Program-made: the position numbers and the translations under genes
Notes under the pieces: model-generated
The model's database searches: none
Seen by the model: the letters and a program-made list of their open reading frames with translations, nothing else
What the model was told of the DNA's origin: nothing
Part shown: positions 1,910 through 62,506 of the stretch, piece after piece
Numbering within the stretch: the first letter of the stretch is position 1
Layout of the letters: the number at the start of each line of letters is the position of its first letter
DNA from: Geoalkalibacter sp.
Lineage (GTDB): Bacteria > Desulfobacterota > Desulfuromonadia > Desulfuromonadales > Geoalkalibacteraceae
Reading direction: 5' to 3'
Assembly: GCF_030605225.1 (NCBI RefSeq)
Contig: NZ_JAUWAV010000007.1
Coordinates: 1 to 64,000 of the forward strand
DNA: 64,000 bases

Positions 1910-2247
1910 GCTCCATGACCTCCCGGATGGTCGACAGGGTGGTGATCCTGGTTTTTCACCTTGCATCTATTATAGGCGGATTGGGTCAGGTTGCCAGCGG
2001 CAAGGATGGACCCGATTTCTATTCAGTGTACATTTTACCAATACACTCAAACGCACACAAAAAGCGTATGAATTATCAGCCACTTGACACACTTTCTCGG
2101 GGCGATGGACGCACTCGGCCGCGGCGCTGGTGTATAAAATTTCTGGTGTCCCATCCCTTTGCCGCCGCCGTGCAAGACCGCTCTCGCAGATTTTATTCTT
2201 CAACCATTGCGGCAACTTGGCAGGAATCGACAGCCTTTGAAAAAAGC
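1910..2247. promoter_or_regulatory. Upstream regulatory region of the first mini-protein unit
   Basis: There is no gene here. The region holds an inverted repeat GTGTA-N11-TACAC (2026-2046) about 200 bp upstream of the sigma-54 promoter at 2248. A block TGTATAAAATTTCT (2131-2144) lies about 104 bp upstream of it. Nearly the same block recurs at the same distance from the second sigma-54 promoter (3360), suggesting activator-binding sites. Confidence 0.5.
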
Positions 2248-2263
2248 TGGCACGCCTGATGCT
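2248..2263 (+). promoter_or_regulatory. Sigma-54 promoter of the first mini-protein unit
   Basis: TGGCACGCCTGATGCT has the invariant GG (2249-2250) and GC (2261-2262) separated by exactly ten bases, and the -24 element is a perfect TGGCACG. It lies about 50 bp upstream of the first gene start at 2314, giving a leader of about 40 nt. Confidence 0.85.
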
Positions 2264-2313
2264 CTATTACCAAGTCAAGAACAAGGGAAAAACCCCCGCG
2301 ACAGGAGGATGCC

Positions 2314-2529
2314 ATGAAAAAGATCAGTATGATGACCGCTGCCCTGTTGACCGTTGCCGGTCAGGCCCTGGCCGCCCCGGCAGGCGAAGCCTCTTCCTCG
2401 GGACTGATGACCTGGATGTTCTTCGCCTTCTTCGCCCTGATTCTGGTCGCGCAATTGGTGCCGGGATTGCTGATGCTGGGTGCGGCCCTCAAGGGTCTGT
2501 TCAGCCCGGCGGCGAAGCAACTGCGTTAA
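2314..2529 (+). CDS. Mini membrane protein, paralogue 1 (unknown function)
   Basis: A 71-residue protein preceded by a strong AGGAGG ribosome site. A signal peptide (about 1-20, ending ALAA) is followed by a short Ser/Gly linker and one transmembrane segment containing LILVAQLVP. A basic C-terminus (KQLR) follows. It shares the pattern SG-x3-W-x-F-x2-F-x2-LIxVAQLVP with the proteins at 2581 and 3450. I do not recognise a named family. Its sigma-54 promoter and paralogues suggest a regulated envelope function, perhaps stress-related like Psp accessory proteins, but that is speculation. Confidence 0.75.
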   Translation: MKKISMMTAALLTVAGQALAAPAGEASSSGLMTWMFFAFFALILVAQLVPGLLMLGAALKGLFSPAAKQLR

Positions 2530-2580
2530 GCCGAGAAAACTCAGAGTTTGCCAAAGCCAGCCCATAAAAGGAGGTCCGCC

Positions 2581-2811
2581 ATGAAATCCAGAATGTTCGC
2601 CACTCTCGCCCTTCTGCTCAGCCTGGCCTCTCCTGCCCTCGCCGCGGGAGAACGCGTCGACCACAGCGGCATCGTGGTCTGGACTTTCCTCGGCTTCTGC
2701 GGCCTGATCGTGGTCGCGCAACTGGTGCCCGCCATCCTCATCATGCTGGGCGTGGTGAAAGGCGTCACCCAGGGAAGCGGCCAGGTCGCGGAGCAGCGCG
2801 CCAGGCACTAA
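2581..2811 (+). CDS. Mini membrane protein, paralogue 2 (unknown function)
   Basis: A 76-residue protein with an AAAGGAGG ribosome site, 51 bp after the previous gene and presumably co-transcribed with it. A signal peptide ends near ALAA. The mature part, DHSGIVVWTFLGFCGLIVVAQL in outline, forms one transmembrane helix, followed by a polar basic tail (QVAEQRARH). It is most similar to the protein at 3450: both have HSGI, GF-x-GLIVVAQLVPA and matching lengths. Function unknown. Confidence 0.78.
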   Translation: MKSRMFATLALLLSLASPALAAGERVDHSGIVVWTFLGFCGLIVVAQLVPAILIMLGVVKGVTQGSGQVAEQRARH

Positions 2812-2836
2812 GCGATAACCTTAGGGGCACCCCCCG

Positions 2837-2880
2837 AAAAATCCCCAGCCTCCCTCCGGAGCCTGGGGATTTTTTTGTTT
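2837..2880 (+). terminator. Terminator of the first mini-protein unit
   Basis: A GC-rich stem ATCCCCAGCC...GGCTCC / GGAGCCTGGGGAT is followed by a T7 run, 25 bp after the stop of the second mini-protein gene. Confidence 0.85.
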
Positions 2881-2883
2881 CGT

Positions 2884-2897
2884 TTGACGCGCATCAA
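2884..2897 (+). promoter_or_regulatory. FNR/CRP-type operator half-sites
   Basis: TTGAC-GCGC-ATCAA differs by one base from the FNR consensus TTGAT-N4-ATCAA. It sits about 60 bp upstream of the mini-gene at 2958, a position suitable for activation by an oxygen-sensing FNR homologue. Which regulator binds is inference. Confidence 0.5.
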
Positions 2898-2957
2898 GGC
2901 GCAAGACGACCCAATGGCCGACAATCCCGCCATATCGACCCGGCCAAGGAGACCGCC

Positions 2958-3086
2958 ATGCTGACCGCCACCGAAGTCATCCTCAACCTGTGCATCTGGG
3001 CGCTGCTGGGCGTCGGGTTGTTCTTCGGCCTGCGCGCCGCTCTGCGGCGACGGCAGAAACGGCGCGGCGAAACCACCCAGCGCTGA
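2958..3086 (+). CDS. Very small single-pass membrane protein (42 aa)
   Basis: An open frame with an AAGGAG ribosome site encodes 42 residues: a short polar N-terminus (MLTATEV), one hydrophobic helix (about residues 7-27) and a strongly basic tail (RRRQKRRGETTQR). It is not a paralogue of its neighbours, as it lacks the signal peptide and the VAQLVP motif. Topology and size resemble small oxidase-associated subunits, but no identity can be claimed. An FNR-like box lies upstream. Confidence 0.55.
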   Translation: MLTATEVILNLCIWALLGVGLFFGLRAALRRRQKRRGETTQR

Positions 3087-3359
3087 CCCCTCTTCAACCG
3101 CGCGGCCGGTTCGCGCCGCTCATATTCTTTCTTCATCCACCGTATACTTCGCATATACACCGCGAAAAACCAGAATTTTCCATTTAATTTCTTATGCTTA
3201 GATCAACATGCGGGATTTTATCGGCCCAACCTCTCGCCTGCGGATGTATGAAATTTCTATTTACCCCCATGGCGCGCCGCTGGTGACGCACACCCAAACA
3301 GAAATATTTTCTCTATAAATATCAACATGTTAAACAATTATTGGAATTTTTCCCAAAAC
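3087..3359. promoter_or_regulatory. Upstream regulatory region of the second mini-protein unit
   Basis: No gene was found in this AT-rich stretch. It contains an inverted repeat GTATA-N7-TATAC (3142-3158) about 202 bp, and a block TGTATGAAATTTCT (3245-3258) about 102 bp, upstream of the sigma-54 promoter. This mirrors the layout upstream of the promoter at 2248. Confidence 0.5.
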
Positions 3360-3375
3360 TGGCACGCCTGATGCT
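3360..3375 (+). promoter_or_regulatory. Sigma-54 promoter of the second mini-protein unit
   Basis: TGGCACGCCTGATGCT is identical to the promoter at 2248-2263, with GG (3361-3362) and GC (3373-3374) ten bases apart. It precedes the gene at 3450 by about 75 bp. Confidence 0.85.
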
Positions 3376-3449
3376 CTATATAAAAATCAAATACAAGACG
3401 CAGGGGATTCCCCCCACGAACTCGATAACCCTTCCAAAGGAGGACCGCC

Positions 3450-3662
3450 ATGAAAGCCACCCTGTTCGCCGCCATCGCCATGCTGCTCAGTATCGCTTCT
3501 CCCGCTTTCGCCGCCGTTGGGCCGCAGGAACACAGCGGCATCCTGGTGTGGGCCTTCATCGGCTTCTTCGGCCTGATCGTCGTGGCCCAGCTCGTCCCGG
3601 CGGCGCTGGTGCTGATCGGCATCGCCCGCAGCTTCGCCGTCGGTCATCAGCAGCTCAACTAA
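3450..3662 (+). CDS. Mini membrane protein, paralogue 3 (unknown function)
   Basis: A 70-residue protein with an AAAGGAGG ribosome site. A signal peptide (about 1-22, ending AFAA) is followed by a short PQEHSGI linker and one transmembrane helix with GFFGLIVVAQLVPA, then a short polar tail. It is the closest relative of the protein at 2581 and is transcribed from its own sigma-54 promoter. No named family recognised. Confidence 0.78.
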   Translation: MKATLFAAIAMLLSIASPAFAAVGPQEHSGILVWAFIGFFGLIVVAQLVPAALVLIGIARSFAVGHQQLN

Positions 3663-3690: not shown

Positions 3691-3727
3691 GGCGAAGGAC
3701 CTCTCCGAGTCCTTCGCTTTTTTTTTG
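3691..3727 (+). terminator. Terminator of the second mini-protein unit
   Basis: A 9-bp perfect stem GCGAAGGAC / GTCCTTCGC is followed by a T9 run, 30 bp after the stop codon. Confidence 0.9.
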
Positions 3728-3835: not shown

Positions 3836-4873
3836 TCACCCGTAGATCTTGCTTTCCTGCTCGGCCACGCGGATGAAGGTGGTGCGTTTGGTCAGTTCCT
3901 TGAGGGCGCCGGCGCCGACGTAGGTGCAGGCCGAGCGCAGGCCGCCGAGGATATCCTTGACCGTTTCGTTCAGGGAGCCGCGGTAGGGCACCTCGACGGT
4001 CTTGCCTTCCGAGGAGCGGTATTCGGCCACGCCGCCGGCGTATTTCTCCATGGCGGTGGACGAGCTCATGCCGTAGAACAGTTTGTAGGTCTGCCCGCCG
4101 CGCTCCACCAGCTCGCCGCCGCTTTCGTCGTGGCCGGCGAACATCCCGCCGAGCATGACGAAATCCGCCCCGCCGCCAAAAGCCTTGGCCACATCGCCGG
4201 CACAGGCGCAGCCTCCGTCGGAGATGATGCGCCCGCCCAGGCCGTGGGCGGCATCGGCGCACTCGATCACCGCCGAGAGCTGCGGATAGCCCACGCCGGT
4301 CTTGACGCGCGTGGTGCACACCGAGCCGGGGCCGATGCCGACCTTGACGATGTCGGCTCCCGAGAGCAGCAGCTCTTCGACCATCTCGCCGGTGACCACG
4401 TTGCCGGCGACAATCGTCTTGTCGGGCCAGGCATCGCGCACCTTCCGCACGAACTCGACAAAGGATTCGGCATAGCCGTTGGCCACGTCGATGCAGATGA
4501 ACTGCAAACCCGGCGCCAGCCTGAGGATTTCGCCCATGCGCTCGTAGTCTTCGTCGGCGGTGCCGGTGCTGACCATGACGCGCTCGAAAATCTCCTCGCC
4601 CTGCTTTTCGAGAAAGGACTGCCAGGCCCTGAGGCTGTAATGCTTGTGGATGGCGGTGAGCATGCCGTGGCGGGCCAGCACCGCCGCCGCTTCAAAGGTG
4701 CCGACGGTGTCCATGTTGGCGGCGATGACGGGCACGCCCGTCCACTGCCGCCGGCTGTGCATGAAGGTGAAGGTGCGCTCCAGGACGACCTGGGCGCGGC
4801 TTTTGAGGGTCGAGCGCTTGGGGCGGATGAGCACATCCTTGAACCCCAGTTTGAGATCGGCTTCGATACGCAT
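3836..4873 (-). CDS. guaC: GMP reductase
   Basis: A 345-residue protein of the IMPDH/GMPR family, the same length as E. coli GuaC, without CBS domains. It converts GMP to IMP with NADPH in purine salvage. The catalytic loop [11 protein letters not shown] holds the nucleophilic cysteine. [26 protein letters not shown] is the phosphate-binding region (two short glycine-rich stretches), and the flap is around [23 protein letters not shown]. The start at 4873 follows a GGAGCC ribosome site. The gene stands alone and is divergent from the sensor-exonuclease gene. Confidence 0.92.
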
Positions 4874-55442: not shown

Positions 55443-56384
55443 TCAATTTTTCCGCTTGACCGGCAGGTCGTGCGGATTGAGGTGGCAGGTCAGGCAGTTG
55501 GGGAAACGCGTGTGCAGGTTCTCGCTGTGCGGCAAACCATGACAGGAGGAGCACTCGGGAATCTTGCCGTGCGCCGTATGGCAGACGCTGCAATTGACCT
55601 GACCGTGCTTGCTCGGCGTTTTCTTCCAGTCACCGTAGGCCTGGGCATGGCAGGCTTCGCAGGTGCGCGCGCCCGTGGTGGCGGTGAAGGCGATTTCCAG
55701 GGGTTTGTGCACCGGGTGACACTCGGCGCAGCTCGCCAGCTCCTGCCCGTCGTAGTGGGGTTTATGGCACTCGAAGCAGGAGGGCACGTAGCCGTGCTTG
55801 TCGTAATGGCAGGCCGTGCACCCGACCTGGGTGTGCTTGCTCTTGAACTGGGTGAGCTGTCCCGACGGTCCGGTATGGCAGTCACCGCACGCCTGAACGA
55901 TGGGCGTGCCGGCATAGGGGATATGAAGCGGCTTGTGGGGATTTTGGTGACAACCCAGGCAGTCCGGAAACTTTTCCCCGTGGGGCAGGGTGTGGCAGCT
56001 GGCGCACTTGGGCATGATGTCGTCCCAGTTCTGCCGCGTCGGATTGTAGGCGTGAAACACCTGATGGCAATCCTGGCAATCAAAGCGGTGCCTGCCGCCC
56101 TGGTCACGAATGGCGTTGAAATAGGTCGGATGGCACTGCCCGCACTGGGCCACCGTCAGGGGTTCGGGAACCACGTCATAGGGGTCGCCCGCGACGACGG
56201 GCGCCGCCTTGGGCGCGGGAGCCGGCGAGGGTGCGGGTGCAGGTGCGGGTGCCGCCGCCTTGGCGGTCGGCTCGGGGCCTTTGGTCTCGGTCCCGGGCAG
56301 GGCGCAGGCCGCCACGGCGACCAGGGACAGCAGCCCCAGCGCCGTCAGCAGTGGATGAAACATGCGTCTCTTGGTCCGCTTCAT
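55443..56384 (-). CDS. Dodecaheme c-type cytochrome lipoprotein
   Basis: A 313-residue protein with a lipobox-like AVAAC near residue 27 and an Ala/Pro linker (residues 40-70). Twelve CxxCH sites follow in about 240 residues: CGQCH, CQDCH, CASCH, CLGCH, CGDCH, CTACH, CFECH, CAECH, CEACH, CSVCH, CSSCH, CLTCH. One heme per about 20 residues is very dense packing. The end reads GLPHSENLHTRFPNCLTCHL. It is a paralogue of the next gene, three bases upstream. A membrane-anchored periplasmic electron carrier is likely; not matched to a named cytochrome. Confidence 0.85.
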   Translation of the reverse strand: MKRTKRRMFHPLLTALGLLSLVAVAACALPGTETKGPEPTAKAAAPAPAPAPSPAPAPKAAPVVAGDPYDVVPEPLTVAQCGQCHPTYFNAIRDQGGRHRFDCQDCHQVFHAYNPTRQNWDDIMPKCASCHTLPHGEKFPDCLGCHQNPHKPLHIPYAGTPIVQACGDCHTGPSGQLTQFKSKHTQVGCTACHYDKHGYVPSCFECHKPHYDGQELASCAECHPVHKPLEIAFTATTGARTCEACHAQAYGDWKKTPSKHGQVNCSVCHTAHGKIPECSSCHGLPHSENLHTRFPNCLTCHLNPHDLPVKRKN

Positions 56385-56387
56385 GGC

Positions 56388-57215
56388 TTAGTTCCCCTTC
56401 TTCGGAGCCTGCGCCGGCCAGTTGTTGAGGTCATGGGCGATGTTGTGGCACTCGCCGCAACTGGGGAAGCGCTGGTGGATACCCGCGGCGTGGGGCGTGC
56501 CGTGGCAGTCGCTGCACAGGGGCACCATCTTATGCTTGTCCTGGTGGCAGTAGACGCAGGCCAGAGCCTGGTGCTTGCTCTGGTTGGCGGTGAGCTGGGC
56601 GTAGGCCTGGCCGTGGCAGGCGGCGCAGTGAATGTTGGGCATCTTGTCGTCATAGGTCACGAGCAGCGGCTTGTGGGCCTGATGGCAGCTCGCGCAATCC
56701 TTCTGCGTCATTTCCTGGCTGTGCGGCTTGTGGCAGAGCACGCACTCGGGGATCATGCCGTGGGTGTCGGCGTGGCAGAAGTTGCACGCCACATCGTTGT
56801 GCGCGCTGGGATTGGCGCTGAGCTGCTGACCGATGGGGGCATGACAGGTAATGCATTCGGCCTTGAGCTCGCCCGAGAGGTTGAGCTCCAGGGGAGTGTG
56901 GGCATTGCTGTGGCACTGGCCGCAGTTGGGCAGCTCGAAGTGCGGATTGCCCGTATGGCACATGGAACATTTGGGAACGATGTCGGTGACCTTGGGGGGA
57001 TGACCGACATGGCAGTCCATGCAGCCCACCGCCGTCTTGTGCTTCATGCCCTTGGCTTCGATCTGCTGCGGTTGCGCCTCATGGCACTTGACGCAGTCAG
57101 AATTCGACAGCGCCGTCGCCTGAGCCTGCGCGGACGCCGCCGCGCCGATCACCAGGCAGGCCACCATCACCAGGGCGCGCCGAACCAAACCTTGCCAACC
57201 TTGCGTCCTTCTCAT
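56388..57215 (-). CDS. Dodecaheme c-type cytochrome, soluble paralogue
   Basis: The start at 57215 follows CAGGAGG. The 275-residue protein has a signal peptide (cleavage near AQA) but no lipobox. It also has twelve CxxCH sites: CVKCH, CMDCH, CSMCH, CGQCH, CITCH, CNFCH, CVLCH, CASCH, CAACH, CVYCH, CSDCH, CGECH. The spacing and the ends (GTPHAAGIHQRFPSCGECH) parallel the downstream lipoprotein, indicating tandem duplication. It is probably a periplasmic shuttle working with its lipid-anchored twin. Confidence 0.85.
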   Translation of the reverse strand: MRRTQGWQGLVRRALVMVACLVIGAAASAQAQATALSNSDCVKCHEAQPQQIEAKGMKHKTAVGCMDCHVGHPPKVTDIVPKCSMCHTGNPHFELPNCGQCHSNAHTPLELNLSGELKAECITCHAPIGQQLSANPSAHNDVACNFCHADTHGMIPECVLCHKPHSQEMTQKDCASCHQAHKPLLVTYDDKMPNIHCAACHGQAYAQLTANQSKHQALACVYCHQDKHKMVPLCSDCHGTPHAAGIHQRFPSCGECHNIAHDLNNWPAQAPKKGN

Positions 57216-57347
57216 TGCATTTTCCTCCTGTCTCCCGACTTCGTTAACAAAATTTCCCCGAAGGGAATCAGATCCCGGCATAAAAACACCAACAAGACGC
57301 GCGGCCCCTCGTCCCACGAAACGGACAAGACCTGAACGCACCTCACT

Positions 57348-58432: not shown

Positions 58433-60034
58433 GTGCGCCATAGCCTGACCACCAAGCTGACACTGGTCGTCGGCCTCGTGCTGATGCTGGTCATGCTGCT
58501 TTTTGCCGCCCTCAACATCAAGACCCTCAAGAAGATCTTTCTCGAGGAAGCCATCCACGATGTCGACAACCTGAGTGAAACCCTGATCCGCTCGACCCAT
58601 TACCAGATGCTCGAGGACGACCGCAAGCGCGTCTATCAGATGATCCAGGAGGTGGGCACCCAACGCGGCATCGAACATATCCGCCTGATCAACAAGGACG
58701 GCGAGATCACCTTTTCGACAGAGCGCGCCGAAATCGGCGCCATTCTCGACAAGAACACCGAGGGCTGCAACGTCTGCCATGCCAAGGACACGCCCCTCAC
58801 CCACGCCTCCACCATGAACCGCAGCCGTATTTTCGAAGATCGCAACGGCAAGGAAGTGCTGGGCATGGCCAAGGCCATCTACAACCAGCAGAGCTGCGCG
58901 ACCGCCGAATGCCATTTTCATCCACCCGACGTCAAGATGCTCGGGGTTCTCGACGTCATCGTCTCCCTGGACGGCCTGCAGCTGCAAACCGCCACCTACC
59001 GCAACAACATCATCGTGCTGACCCTGATGCTGCTGCTGATTCTCGGGGCCTGCCTGACCCTGGTCACGCAGAAACTCATCACGCAGCCGCTCAACAAGCT
59101 GCTGGCGCACACTCACCGCATCGCCCAGGGCGATTGGGCGCTGATCGAACTGCCGAGCCAGGACGAATTCGGCCATCTGGCCGCCTCCTTCAACGACATG
59201 ACCCACAACCTCAAGCAGGCCCAGGACGAGCTGGCCCTCTGGGGCAGTCAACTTGAGGCCAAGGTGGAACAGCGCACCCATGAAATCAAGGAAATGCAGT
59301 CGCGCCTGATCCGTTCGGAAAAAATCGCCTCCCTGGGAGAGTTGGTGGCGGGCATCGCCCACGAGCTCAACAATCCCCTGACCGGGGTGCTCATGTTCTC
59401 CTCCATGATCGCCGGCGACCCGCGCCTCGATCCGGCCCTCAAGCCCGATTTCGACACGATTGTCCGTGAAACCCAGCGCTGCGCGGGCATCGTGCGCGGA
59501 CTGCTCGATTTCGCGCGGGAAAGCGTGCCGAAGAAATCCCTGGGCTCGGTGGAACAGATTTTGGAGCAGACCCTGGCTCTCGTGGCTCACCACAGCTCCT
59601 TTCACGACATCGAGGTCGTGCGCGACTATGGACGCACGCCCGACATCCTTGCCGATCCCAACCAGTTGGAGCAGGTTTTCATGAATCTGTTCATCAACGC
59701 CAGCCAGGCCATGGAGAGCGGCGGCACCCTGCGCGTCCAGACCCGGACCGCCAATGACCACGACTGCGTCAAGATCCGCATCAGCGACACGGGCTGCGGC
59801 ATCCCCGAAGAGAATCTCTCCAAGATCTTCGATCCCTTCTTCTCGACCAAGGGGCACAAGGGCACGGGCCTGGGCCTGTCGGTCTCCTACGGCATCATCG
59901 AGAACCACGGCGGCCATATCGAGGTGGAAAGCCGCCTGGGCGAAGGCACCACCTTCACCATCACCCTGCCCATCGGCAGCGATTACAAGCAGCCGGCAAG
60001 CGGCACGGAAAGCCTCCTCGCCACCGGCCTCTGA
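58433..60034 (+). CDS. Sensor histidine kinase with c-type heme motifs in its periplasmic domain
   Basis: The gene starts with GTG behind AAAAGGAGG. The 533-residue kinase has TM1 (about 10-28), a periplasmic domain (29-190), and TM2 (about 193-213). HAMP (to about 265), a coiled coil and a HisKA (LVAGIAHELNNPLTG) follow, then a HATPase (NLFINASQAME, DTGCGIPEENL, GTGLGLSVSYG). The periplasmic domain carries CNVCH (about residue 112) and CATAECH (a Cx4CH site, about 154), both able to attach heme c. That suggests a redox or gas sensor. It converges on an NtrC-type regulator, its probable partner. Confidence 0.85.
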   Translation: MRHSLTTKLTLVVGLVLMLVMLLFAALNIKTLKKIFLEEAIHDVDNLSETLIRSTHYQMLEDDRKRVYQMIQEVGTQRGIEHIRLINKDGEITFSTERAEIGAILDKNTEGCNVCHAKDTPLTHASTMNRSRIFEDRNGKEVLGMAKAIYNQQSCATAECHFHPPDVKMLGVLDVIVSLDGLQLQTATYRNNIIVLTLMLLLILGACLTLVTQKLITQPLNKLLAHTHRIAQGDWALIELPSQDEFGHLAASFNDMTHNLKQAQDELALWGSQLEAKVEQRTHEIKEMQSRLIRSEKIASLGELVAGIAHELNNPLTGVLMFSSMIAGDPRLDPALKPDFDTIVRETQRCAGIVRGLLDFARESVPKKSLGSVEQILEQTLALVAHHSSFHDIEVVRDYGRTPDILADPNQLEQVFMNLFINASQAMESGGTLRVQTRTANDHDCVKIRISDTGCGIPEENLSKIFDPFFSTKGHKGTGLGLSVSYGIIENHGGHIEVESRLGEGTTFTITLPIGSDYKQPASGTESLLATGL

Positions 60035-60094: not shown

Positions 60095-61510
60095 TCAGAC
60101 GTTGGTGTGCTCCCGAATGGAAATCCCCTGCTTCTTGAGCAGCGCCTGGAAGTTGGGACGCAGCATGCCGACTTCCTCGGCCGCCCGGGTCACGTTCCAG
60201 TCGTTGCGCTTGAGCGCATCGAGCACAAAGGCGCGTTCCACCGGCATGACGGCCTGCTCGCGCACCTGGCGCTTGGTTTCCTTGAGTTCGTCGGCGGTGC
60301 GCGGCACGTAATGGCAGCTCATCCGCTCCTCGTCGCCGCCCCCCAGATGCAGTTCCAGGTCGTCCTCCTCGATCAGATCGCCGGCGGCCAGCACCACCGC
60401 GCGCTCGATGACGTTCTCCAGTTCCCGCACGTTGCCCATGAAGGGGTAGCGCTCGATCTGCGCCATGGCGCCCGGCGTCAGGCCGCGGATGTCCTTGCCG
60501 ATCTCCTGGGAAAACTTCTGCAGGAAATGCCCGACCAGAATCGGCAGATCGCCCTGGCGATCGCGCAGGGGCGGCAGATCGATGGGGATGATGTTGAGGC
60601 GGAAGAACAAATCCTCGCGAAAGCGCCCTTCGGCGACCAGTTCCTTGAGGCTGCGGTTGGTCGCGGCGATCAGGCGAATGTCGATGGGCACCGGCTTGGT
60701 GCCGCCGATGGGCACCACCTCGCGCTCCTGCAGCACCCGCAGCAGCTTGGCCTGGGTGGTCAGGCTGATGTTGGACACTTCGTCGAGAAACAGCGTGCCG
60801 CCGTCGGCGACCTTGAACAGACCGGTCTTGGTCTGCACCGCCCCGGTGAAGGAACCCTTGATGTGCCCGAACAATTCGCTCTCCAGCAGGCTTTCGGCCA
60901 GCGAGGTGCAGTCCACGGCGACAAAGGGCTGATCCTTGCGCGCGCTGTTGCGGTGAATGGCGCGGGCGACCAGTTCCTTGCCGGTGCCGCTCTCGCCGGT
61001 GATCAGCACGGTACTGTCGGTAGGCGCCACCTGAATGATGCGGCGATAGACCTTTTCCATGGCCTTGCTCTTGCCGATGAAGGAATCAAACCCCTGACGG
61101 TCCCTGAGCTCCTTTTTGAGATAGAAATTCTCCAGCAGCACCGCGCGCTGCTCGATGGCTTTTTCGACCCGGTCACGGATCTGCTCGGGCGTGAAGGGCT
61201 TGGCCAGGTAATCGAAGGCGCCGTTCTTCATCGCCTCGACCGCCGAATCGATGGTCGAATAGCCGGTGATCATGATCACCGGAACCTCCGGTTGAAGAAT
61301 CTTGATGGCCTTGAGGACATCCATGCCGTTCATCCCCGGCATCTTCAAATCGGAAATGACCAGGTGATAGTCGGTTTCCTGAAGCTTTTCCAGGGCCAGA
61401 TGCCCGCTGGGCGCCATGTCGATCTGATAGGATTCACCCTCCAGGGTGCGCCGGATGGCTTCCCGGATCACGGACTCATCATCGACTACGAGAATTCGCT
61501 TCTTTTCCAT
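60095..61510 (-). CDS. NtrC-family sigma-54-dependent response regulator
   Basis: The start at 61510 (MEKKRILVVDDES) follows GAAGAGG. The 471-residue regulator has a receiver (phospho-acceptor Asp54 in HLVISDLKMPG) and an AAA+ domain (about 145-380). The AAA+ domain has Walker A GESGTGKELVARAI, the sigma-54-contacting loop GSFTGA (usual GAFTGA), and Walker B GGTLFLDEV. A Fis-type HTH ends the protein (WNVTRAAEEVGMLRPNFQALL). It activates sigma-54 promoters from a distance. The convergent heme-sensor kinase is the likely cognate kinase. Confidence 0.92.
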   Translation of the reverse strand: MEKKRILVVDDESVIREAIRRTLEGESYQIDMAPSGHLALEKLQETDYHLVISDLKMPGMNGMDVLKAIKILQPEVPVIMITGYSTIDSAVEAMKNGAFDYLAKPFTPEQIRDRVEKAIEQRAVLLENFYLKKELRDRQGFDSFIGKSKAMEKVYRRIIQVAPTDSTVLITGESGTGKELVARAIHRNSARKDQPFVAVDCTSLAESLLESELFGHIKGSFTGAVQTKTGLFKVADGGTLFLDEVSNISLTTQAKLLRVLQEREVVPIGGTKPVPIDIRLIAATNRSLKELVAEGRFREDLFFRLNIIPIDLPPLRDRQGDLPILVGHFLQKFSQEIGKDIRGLTPGAMAQIERYPFMGNVRELENVIERAVVLAAGDLIEEDDLELHLGGGDEERMSCHYVPRTADELKETKRQVREQAVMPVERAFVLDALKRNDWNVTRAAEEVGMLRPNFQALLKKQGISIREHTNV

Positions 61511-61577
61511 GACCTCTTCTTGCTCCTTTGATTGCAAAACACCCAAAAAACCAACCCGATACCAATCATTTCATGCT

Positions 61578-62066
61578 TCACAAGGGTTTGCTTGCCCGGG
61601 CGCGGTCGTAGGCGCGGCCCCGGAGATGATCGAGAACCGAAAGGATCACGCCGGCGACGAACACGGCGAGCAGATTTTCCGGCAAGGCTTCGGCGCTGAA
61701 ATAAAGCAGGTAAAAAACCGATCTCAGCGCCAGATGGATCCAGGCGCGATCGGGTTTGGTGCCGTAAATGATGCCGTGGCAGGACACGGCGACGGAGGAG
61801 ACGAAATAGGCCGAGAGTAGAACACTGATCAGTTGCGGCGGCGGCGGATCGCCGAGGTGCGACCTGAGCGTCTCGGGAAGCGCGGCCGTGAAGCTGAAGT
61901 TCTGCAGGGAGACCGCCACCAGGGTCACCACCATGAAGAAAAGAAACATCCACAGGGTACGTTCGGCGCAACGCTCGTGCCCGGCTTTTGCCGGCAGGGG
62001 CTCACGCATCCTCGGCGACCGACGGAGACGGATTTTGCTTCGGGACGGATCAGAGATTCTCAGCAT
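61578..62066 (-). CDS. Small integral membrane protein of unknown function
   Basis: Start at 62066 (MLRISDPSRSKIRLR). The 162-residue product has a basic cytoplasmic N-terminus (about 35 residues) and three to four hydrophobic segments (about 38-58, 80-100, 110-130, 133-150). Between helices lies GIIYGTKPDRAWIHLALR. There is no recognised domain. It follows the pseudo-receiver gene by 35 bases on the same strand, so the two probably form an operon driven by the sigma-54-like promoter at 62586-62603. Confidence 0.6.
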   Translation of the reverse strand: MLRISDPSRSKIRLRRSPRMREPLPAKAGHERCAERTLWMFLFFMVVTLVAVSLQNFSFTAALPETLRSHLGDPPPPQLISVLLSAYFVSSVAVSCHGIIYGTKPDRAWIHLALRSVFYLLYFSAEALPENLLAVFVAGVILSVLDHLRGRAYDRARASKPL

Positions 62067-62101: not shown

Positions 62102-62506
62102 CTAGGCTTTCTTGGCGGACTTGCCGGCGTTGTTGAAGGCGCATTCGACCGCTTGACGGATTTCTTCATTGTCTTCGCTCTTCTGCGGCCGCAGGGCATG
62201 ATAGAAAATGCCCTCCTCCCGGATCTTTCGCTCCTGGGCGACGGATTCCGAATCAGAGACGAGAATGATCGCCAATTGCCGGTTGCACTTCTTGAGCAGA
62301 TGAATGAGGTTGGCGGGCGCGACCTTTTTGTCGAAATCGCTTCCCAGAACCAGCACCGGCGCCTTGCGATCGAGAATGCTGCACAGCACGTTCACCGCCG
62401 AATCGGTCGTCTCGACCTCGTAGCCGGCGTCGGTAAAAAACTCGGCCATTTGCTCCCGATAGTCACTGTCTCTGTCCGCGATCAGAATTCCCCGGTCTCT
62501 GGTCAT
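62102..62506 (-). CDS. Degenerate (pseudo) receiver-domain protein
   Basis: Start at 62506 (MTRDRGILIADRDSDYRE). The 134-residue protein folds like a receiver by pattern (ILIADRD for the acidic pocket, AIILVSDSE for strand 4). The phospho-acceptor position in PVLVLGSDFD appears to be Gly, and the conserved Lys of KPF reads ALRP with Arg. It is therefore probably not phosphorylated and may signal by protein contact or bind another ligand. It lies between an NtrC-type regulator and a membrane protein, with a sigma-54-like promoter. Confidence 0.7.
   Translation of the reverse strand: MTRDRGILIADRDSDYREQMAEFFTDAGYEVETTDSAVNVLCSILDRKAPVLVLGSDFDKKVAPANLIHLLKKCNRQLAIILVSDSESVAQERKIREEGIFYHALRPQKSEDNEEIRQAVECAFNNAGKSAKKA

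Follow-up and report, generated by a model that had tools for sequence, protein, structure and literature searches.

Sigma-54-driven small exported proteins of Geoalkalibacter as putative accessory subunits of Cbc-type respiratory complexes

Three small exported proteins of Geoalkalibacter sp., encoded by two sigma-54-driven transcription units, are putative accessory subunits of Cbc complexes or factors in their assembly, with the free-standing gene copies being co-regulated with these complexes; we put the probability of this reading at roughly 60%. The genes lie within a stretch of 64,000 nucleotides that was analysed as a whole (contig NZ_JAUWAV010000007.1, positions 1 to 64,000; hereafter, the window). 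Members of the same family head Cbc operons elsewhere and the window copies have the same kind of on-switch, so the three proteins are probably accessory parts of Cbc complexes. This molecular role is deduced from computed evidence, namely co-encoding, co-occurrence, a common layout of sigma-54 promoter and enhancer, clustering of subtypes, selection, an invariant glutamine, and a topology model. In bacteria that respire metals or electrodes, the energy yield is set by inner-membrane quinol oxidoreductases. What emerges from our analysis is a protein family that has no name and occurs in three quarters of the genomes sampled from the class, together with a phosphorylation-dead receiver as its partner and a sigma-54 enhancer site at a set position, by which free-standing cassettes are linked to Cbc operons. 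The initial annotation of this DNA had proposed an undescribed system. What stands of this is an undescribed, multi-copy, sigma-54-driven family; the cassettes are not a system of their own in the window, however, but free-standing relatives of the heads of Cbc operons.

Unit 1 encodes P1 (2314-2529, + strand; A-type, 71 aa) and P2 (2581-2811, +; B-type, 76 aa), and unit 2 encodes P3 (3450-3662, +; B-like, 70 aa), each a small exported protein with a single transmembrane helix. That these are paralogues of 70-76 residues, as first annotated, is borne out: all three match SG(I/L)xxWxFxxFxxLIxVAQLVP, and P1 shares 41% identity with P2 and 42% with P3. The units also have a terminator each, as had been claimed (2838-2873, +, z -5.4; 3691-3727, +, z -4.1). 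P1, P2, and P3 are all under purifying selection, with dN/dS of 0.066/0.279, 0.103/0.592, and 0.006/0.142 relative to L041, a contig from a genome of the same genus that served as the reference for substitutions. An AlphaFold model of P2 (mean pLDDT 82.5; pTM 0.43) has helices at residues 2-15, 17-20, and 30-75, predicting a signal-peptide helix followed by one long helix. A contig of Geoalkalibacter sp. CSMAG_1185 (L118), which has its gene order in common with L041, encodes a protein with 83% identity to P2. Between the two units, a 42-aa single-helix ORF (2958-3086, +) that is absent from the initial list is conserved in L041, L042, and L043; it matched no curated family above cut-off, and no link to the P1/P2/P3 family was found. 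The cassettes are flanked by genes for a DUF6448 protein (897-1475, -), a zinc-ribbon-like membrane protein (1643-1912, -; under the cut-off of Pfam), and a GuaB/GuaC-like product (3836-4873, -; our own reading), the latter two of which flank the cassettes in L041-L043 as well.

As supposed at the outset, no named family covers these proteins. There was no Pfam or NCBIfam match above the curated cut-offs, no PHROGs match at E 0.1, and no good match in a PDB profile search: the three that came up were weak, with E-values of 0.045 at best, and fell within the first 32 residues, i.e. the signal-peptide region, in two cases and at residues 8-44 in the third, ATP synthase subunit b. The lowest E-value belonged to BRANT_His_rich, which one relative matched with 25.4 bits against a cut-off of 44 and which we treat as chance. 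Within the literature searched, with most subscription papers outside it, we found no description of the family, of its pseudo-receiver link, or of the promoter dyad discussed below, and a prior mention is possible. Homologues do come in multiples across Desulfuromonadia: the family is present in 148 of 194 genomes sampled from the class and in 50 of 78 from the order, where it has 319 members and as many as 17 in a single genome, while 26 of 247 sampled genomes of the phylum have it at E 0.0001. Three subtypes can be told apart, A (QxxPG), B (AQLxPA), and C. Of 126 distinct members, all have Gln47 in the membrane helix and 118 have Pro50. The window proteins share the defining features, that is, a profile match, a signal peptide, and one membrane helix with the invariant Gln. 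Their genome holds nine matches at E <0.01 with a single query and ten at E 0.001 or better with the profile; a further divergent member (L241 5100-5342, G000 C10; E 9.7e-10) follows the sigma-54-like box TGGCATGGGCGATGC.

Which genes accompany the family? In the window's genome, one locus (L009) has the order A, receiver, B, C, cytochrome c with seven CxxCH motifs (our own count), b561 cytochrome b, and kinase, and another (L010) has A, receiver, B, a 57-aa protein, five-heme cytochrome c, FeS protein, and NrfD, next to a divergent sigma-54 activator. Each of these layouts is found again in other genomes, genes throughout being greedy ORF calls and labels coming from single-seed phmmer. L140, L158, L181, and L211 add a 12-heme cytochrome plus homologues of a HAMP-like protein and of the membrane protein M176; these extra parts agree with those of Cbc5 in the available portions of two reports (PMC7894505, PMC11434368). 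Cbc5 (cbcEDCBA) and Cbc4 (cbcSTU) comprise the same kinds of subunits as the family-carrying operons, but the available portion of their description lists neither a small single-helix subunit nor a pseudo-receiver (PMC11434368). In contrast to both, the window cassettes carry no redox subunit. A very divergent member (L010 10561-10806) stands first in a unit that also encodes a b561 cytochrome and a cytochrome with 3 CxxCH motifs; this unit has its dyads at -222 and -117.

Co-occurrence follows the same lines. Among the 78 genomes of the order, a CbcA- or CbcS-like gene is present in 49 of 50 that have the family versus 2 of 28 that do not; the copies are related, and while random windows and shuffles ignore kinship throughout this study, counting by genus corrects for it in part, giving 30/30 family-positive versus 0/15 negative genera. 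The exceptions are G060 and G077, which have CbcA without the family, and G043 (78% complete), which has the family without either cytochrome. When 134 members in 63 stretches were placed by their partners within 2.6 kb downstream, a rule that misses some operon copies, 22 fell with cbcAB and 18 with cbcSTU, 89 were free-standing, and 5 lay at contig ends; loci L041-L100 had been chosen from high-scoring places and close relatives. The 319 members in 50 genomes likewise exceed the capacity of the 70 CbcA/CbcS-like loci at three members each. As for the window, a seed homologue search returned no cytochrome b, NrfD, FeS, or CbcA homologue, and the cassettes are not themselves part of a Cbc operon: the nearest lies ~63 kb away, and no receiver gene stands beside them. 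Quinol-oxidising and multiheme cytochrome c genes are present elsewhere in the genome.

The B subtype tends to follow the type of complex. The tree was built from the 134 members without the five located at contig ends and without three rows that were duplicates or too long; 47 of its 123 inner branches lack resolution. On it, operon type can be accounted for by 13 changes compared to a shuffled mean of 37.1, a value as low being reached in 0 of 200 shuffles. Most B proteins from cbcSTU operons fall into one supported set (nine, together with five free-standing copies; support 95). P2 groups with cbcAB copies, at a fork with a support of 90 only, P1 is placed without firm support, and P3 lies in a clade (support 98) whose eight members, drawn from several genomes, are all free-standing. 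Since free-standing copies resemble the operon copies and retain promoters, they might be read as vestigial duplicates, functionless heads left over from lost Cbc operons. We consider this improbable, given that dN/dS is well below 1 for the window genes, that the P3 clade is supported and spans several genomes, and that dyad, box, and terminator have all been kept in both units.

The two units share their promoter. The sigma-54 boxes at 2247-2267 (+; unit 1) and 3359-3379 (+; unit 2) both read CTGGCACGCCTGATGCTCTAT, extending to 21 bp the identity that had initially been put at 16 bases or more. The spacing given at that time, TGGCACG-N4-TGC, has to be amended: both boxes read TGGCACG-N4-ATGC, with five bases ahead of TGC, and neither is found with the N4 pattern taken literally. 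Allowing up to three mismatches, TGGCACGNNNNATGCTCTAT finds the two boxes exactly plus one 3-mismatch site in the window, where shuffled sequence gave a mean of 0.46 and three matches were reached in 2 of 100 shuffles. Across 75 family units, each scored at its first gene, a sigma-54-like box with a score of at least 9 lies within 300 bp upstream in 68 cases (random windows, 14%), and one with a score of at least 13 in 48 (random windows, 1.5%), the matrix being approximate and, like the thresholds, our own. The notion that homologues always follow a sigma-54 promoter thus holds for 68 of 75 units, but not for the remaining seven without a good box (three B genes and two others behind a receiver gene, plus L073 and L083).

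A second element lies further upstream. TGTAT dyads with any gap of 2-14 were present upstream of the box in 22 of the 68 regions against 0.2 expected from shuffles, and TGTAT-N9-ATACA with at most one mismatch in 48 of them, leaving 20 dyad-free; of 2000 random windows, 83 contain it. Positions peak near -220 and -117, 103 bp or close to ten helical turns apart. Both window units have the layout seen in the family, in which a sigma-54 box precedes the first gene by 58-125 bp and a dyad lies near -220: TGTACATTTTACCAATACA at 2027-2045 (+), a TGTAT-N9-ATACA with one mismatch, lies 221 bp before the box of unit 1, and CGTATACTTCGCATATACA at 3141-3159 (+), likewise with one mismatch, 219 bp before that of unit 2. 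By eye, possible degenerate second sites that retain the left half TGTAT only can be made out 117 bp (2131-2149, +; unit 1) and 115 bp (3245-3263, +; unit 2) before the boxes; both were left out of the dyad count over the 68 regions. In the Cbc operons of the same genome, the dyad near -220 is exact (cbcBA-type) or has N8 (cbcSTU-type).

Is the dyad specific to the family? Searched exactly over the 3.7 Mb genome, dyad plus box gave four matches and the reversed control none. Three are at family units, namely window unit 2 and the two Cbc operons, unit 1 having a mismatch; the fourth (C64), before a gene read as encoding ribosomal protein L1, we take to be chance. The dyad alone (at most one mismatch) is not enriched genome-wide, with 17 sites as compared to 17 in the reversed control, and it is therefore its position, not its occurrence, that carries the signal. 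Five of these 17 sites lie at family units, one inside unit 2 just past its box, and eleven elsewhere; nine of the eleven (eight loci; C55 and C57 excluded) have no sigma-54 box at the right distance. An exact TGTAT-N9-ATACA lies between an activator gene and a formate-dehydrogenase-like operon (L243 3318; G000 C21:49317), with no sigma-54 box by our matrix.

A candidate activator of both units is encoded in the window itself. This sigma-54 response regulator (60095-61516, -; receiver, AAA+, and Fis helix-turn-helix) shares 304 identical residues with the cbcSTU-type operon's activator, its helix-turn-helix matches those beside Cbc operons, and it may bind the two dyads. A helix-turn-helix of the EVGMLRPNFQALLKK type was found in 31 of 35 activator-labelled ORFs in loci with Cbc genes and in 0 of 12 in loci without, although some ORFs so labelled may not be activators. 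Its neighbour, a candidate redox sensor, is a histidine kinase with HAMP and a single CxxCH motif (58433-60034, +). The activator may be BccR-like; a literature search on that name found no Geobacter paper.

Small exported single-helix proteins under sigma-54 control call to mind the Psp system, an envelope-stress system that likewise involves small membrane proteins under sigma-54, and a psp-like effector role had been considered in the initial annotation. In line with the accompanying remark that psp genes are missing here, no psp model was listed among Pfam matches at E up to 10 for six window proteins. The role itself appears very unlikely, as the gene partners are respiratory complexes and a pseudo-receiver, and the candidate activator is of the receiver type, beside a kinase with a CxxCH motif, so that partners and activator type both differ from those of Psp.

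The receiver-like partner raises another alternative. It matches Response_reg, but the phospho-acceptor position (CheY D57) is occupied by Ser in 15 and Gly in 9 of 24 proteins, never by Asp; still, the gene is present in 47 of 50 family-positive and in 0 of 28 negative genomes of the order. MgrB is known to act on a kinase. By analogy, the small proteins and the pseudo-receiver could form a membrane-bound feedback switch on a kinase or sigma-54 activator, with the cassettes tuning the Cbc regulon and not the enzyme. The retention of a receiver without phospho-acceptor would suit such a signalling relay, as would the kinases and activators often found in or beside the family's Cbc operons and the pairing of the proteins with two different enzyme folds. 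On the other hand, many cassettes, including those of the window, have no adjacent receiver gene, and the B subtype tracks enzyme type, which suits contact with the enzyme. Overall, we regard a relay as a doubtful, though not negligible, explanation.

How might accessory subunits of this kind work? As exported single-helix proteins of the inner membrane, the family would serve Cbc-type menaquinol:cytochrome c oxidoreductases. Removal of the signal peptide would leave a periplasmic N-terminus and one helix across the inner membrane. A and B might pair and pack, via the helix with the polar Gln, on the quinol-oxidising subunit (b561-type CbcB or NrfD-type CbcU), thereby assembling, stabilising, or tuning it as CydX or small bc-complex subunits do, and the pseudo-receiver would be their cytoplasmic partner. 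A heme-type sensor kinase acting through the sigma-54 activator may switch on the window cassettes together with the Cbc operons, so that the cassettes would provide additional accessory subunits, or alternative ones, under the same redox condition. Given that the family accompanies two unrelated quinol-oxidising folds, a regulator or an assembly factor would be suited as well.

Small accessory proteins of respiratory complexes are known as such. CydX, CcoQ, and PetG/L/N are small single-helix subunits of respiratory enzymes, which the present family resembles in size, in having one membrane helix, and in co-expression with large subunits. Unlike these, its members carry a signal peptide, come as A/B pairs and in many copies, and have a pseudo-receiver as partner, and they gave no match above curated cut-offs. 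The multi-copy, free-standing, pseudo-receiver-linked form appears to be new. More speculatively, the A/B cassettes could be exchangeable plug-in subunits that re-specify a common quinol-oxidising complex with regard to partner cytochrome, working potential, or quinone affinity, with the phosphorylation-dead receiver as cytoplasmic adaptor. If true, although we think this rather unlikely, this would amount to a modular control layer over extracellular respiration, for which we know of no counterpart.

Published expression data from Geobacter sulfurreducens may fit the link of the family to Cbc complexes. GSU0597 and the response receiver GSU0596 adjoin cbcBA (GSU0594/0593) by locus number (PMC7726332). 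According to the available part of another study, these two genes and GSU3409 and GSU3410 move together in a gsu1771 mutant, in opposite directions on glass and electrode, with log2 values (glass/electrode) for GSU0597, GSU0596, GSU3409, and GSU3410 of -1.87/2.26, -1.81/2.06, -3.26/2.92, and -3.37/2.06, respectively (PMC10599522). GSU3409/3410, described as putative membrane proteins, are elevated in strain ACLHF relative to ACL on Fe(0) (PMC6520446), and GSU3410 is the namesake of a family with 10 members across six Geobacter genomes (PMC2825233). GSU0597, GSU3409, and GSU3410 are down in a csrA mutant (PMC11934962), GSU3409 is down in gacA and esnD mutants (PMC6456294), and cbcBA is up over 30-fold on electrodes (PMC6148476). 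Counting against the proposed reading, a term search in the main text of the paper on the G. sulfurreducens RpoN regulon returned no gene named from GSU0590-0599 (PMC2725144). GSU0597/0596 and GSU3409/3410 are likened here to the family by locus position and expression, not sequence, and the available portions of these sources give them neither name nor function; they may be candidate members.

Further genes at the far end of the window resemble parts of Cbc-type operons. The genome's third copy of the receiver-like partner (62102-62506, -; start by eye) is 53% identical to the copy in the cbcBA-type operon and scores 26.8 bits with Response_reg, below the Pfam cut-off of 30.2, its phospho-acceptor position having been judged by eye. 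It precedes a gene for an M176-like membrane protein (61578-62066, -; start codon by eye), which is CbcE-like by position and resembles a gene of Cbc-type operons, and it follows a weaker sigma-54-like site, TGGCACGACCCTTGTATA at ~62602 (-), in which GT replaces GC at -12. Two tandem cytochromes c with 12 CxxCH motifs each (55443-57341, -; L240 444-1385 and 1389-2342) lie ~9 kb from the cbcSTU-type operon and, by heme count only, are possibly CbcC-like.
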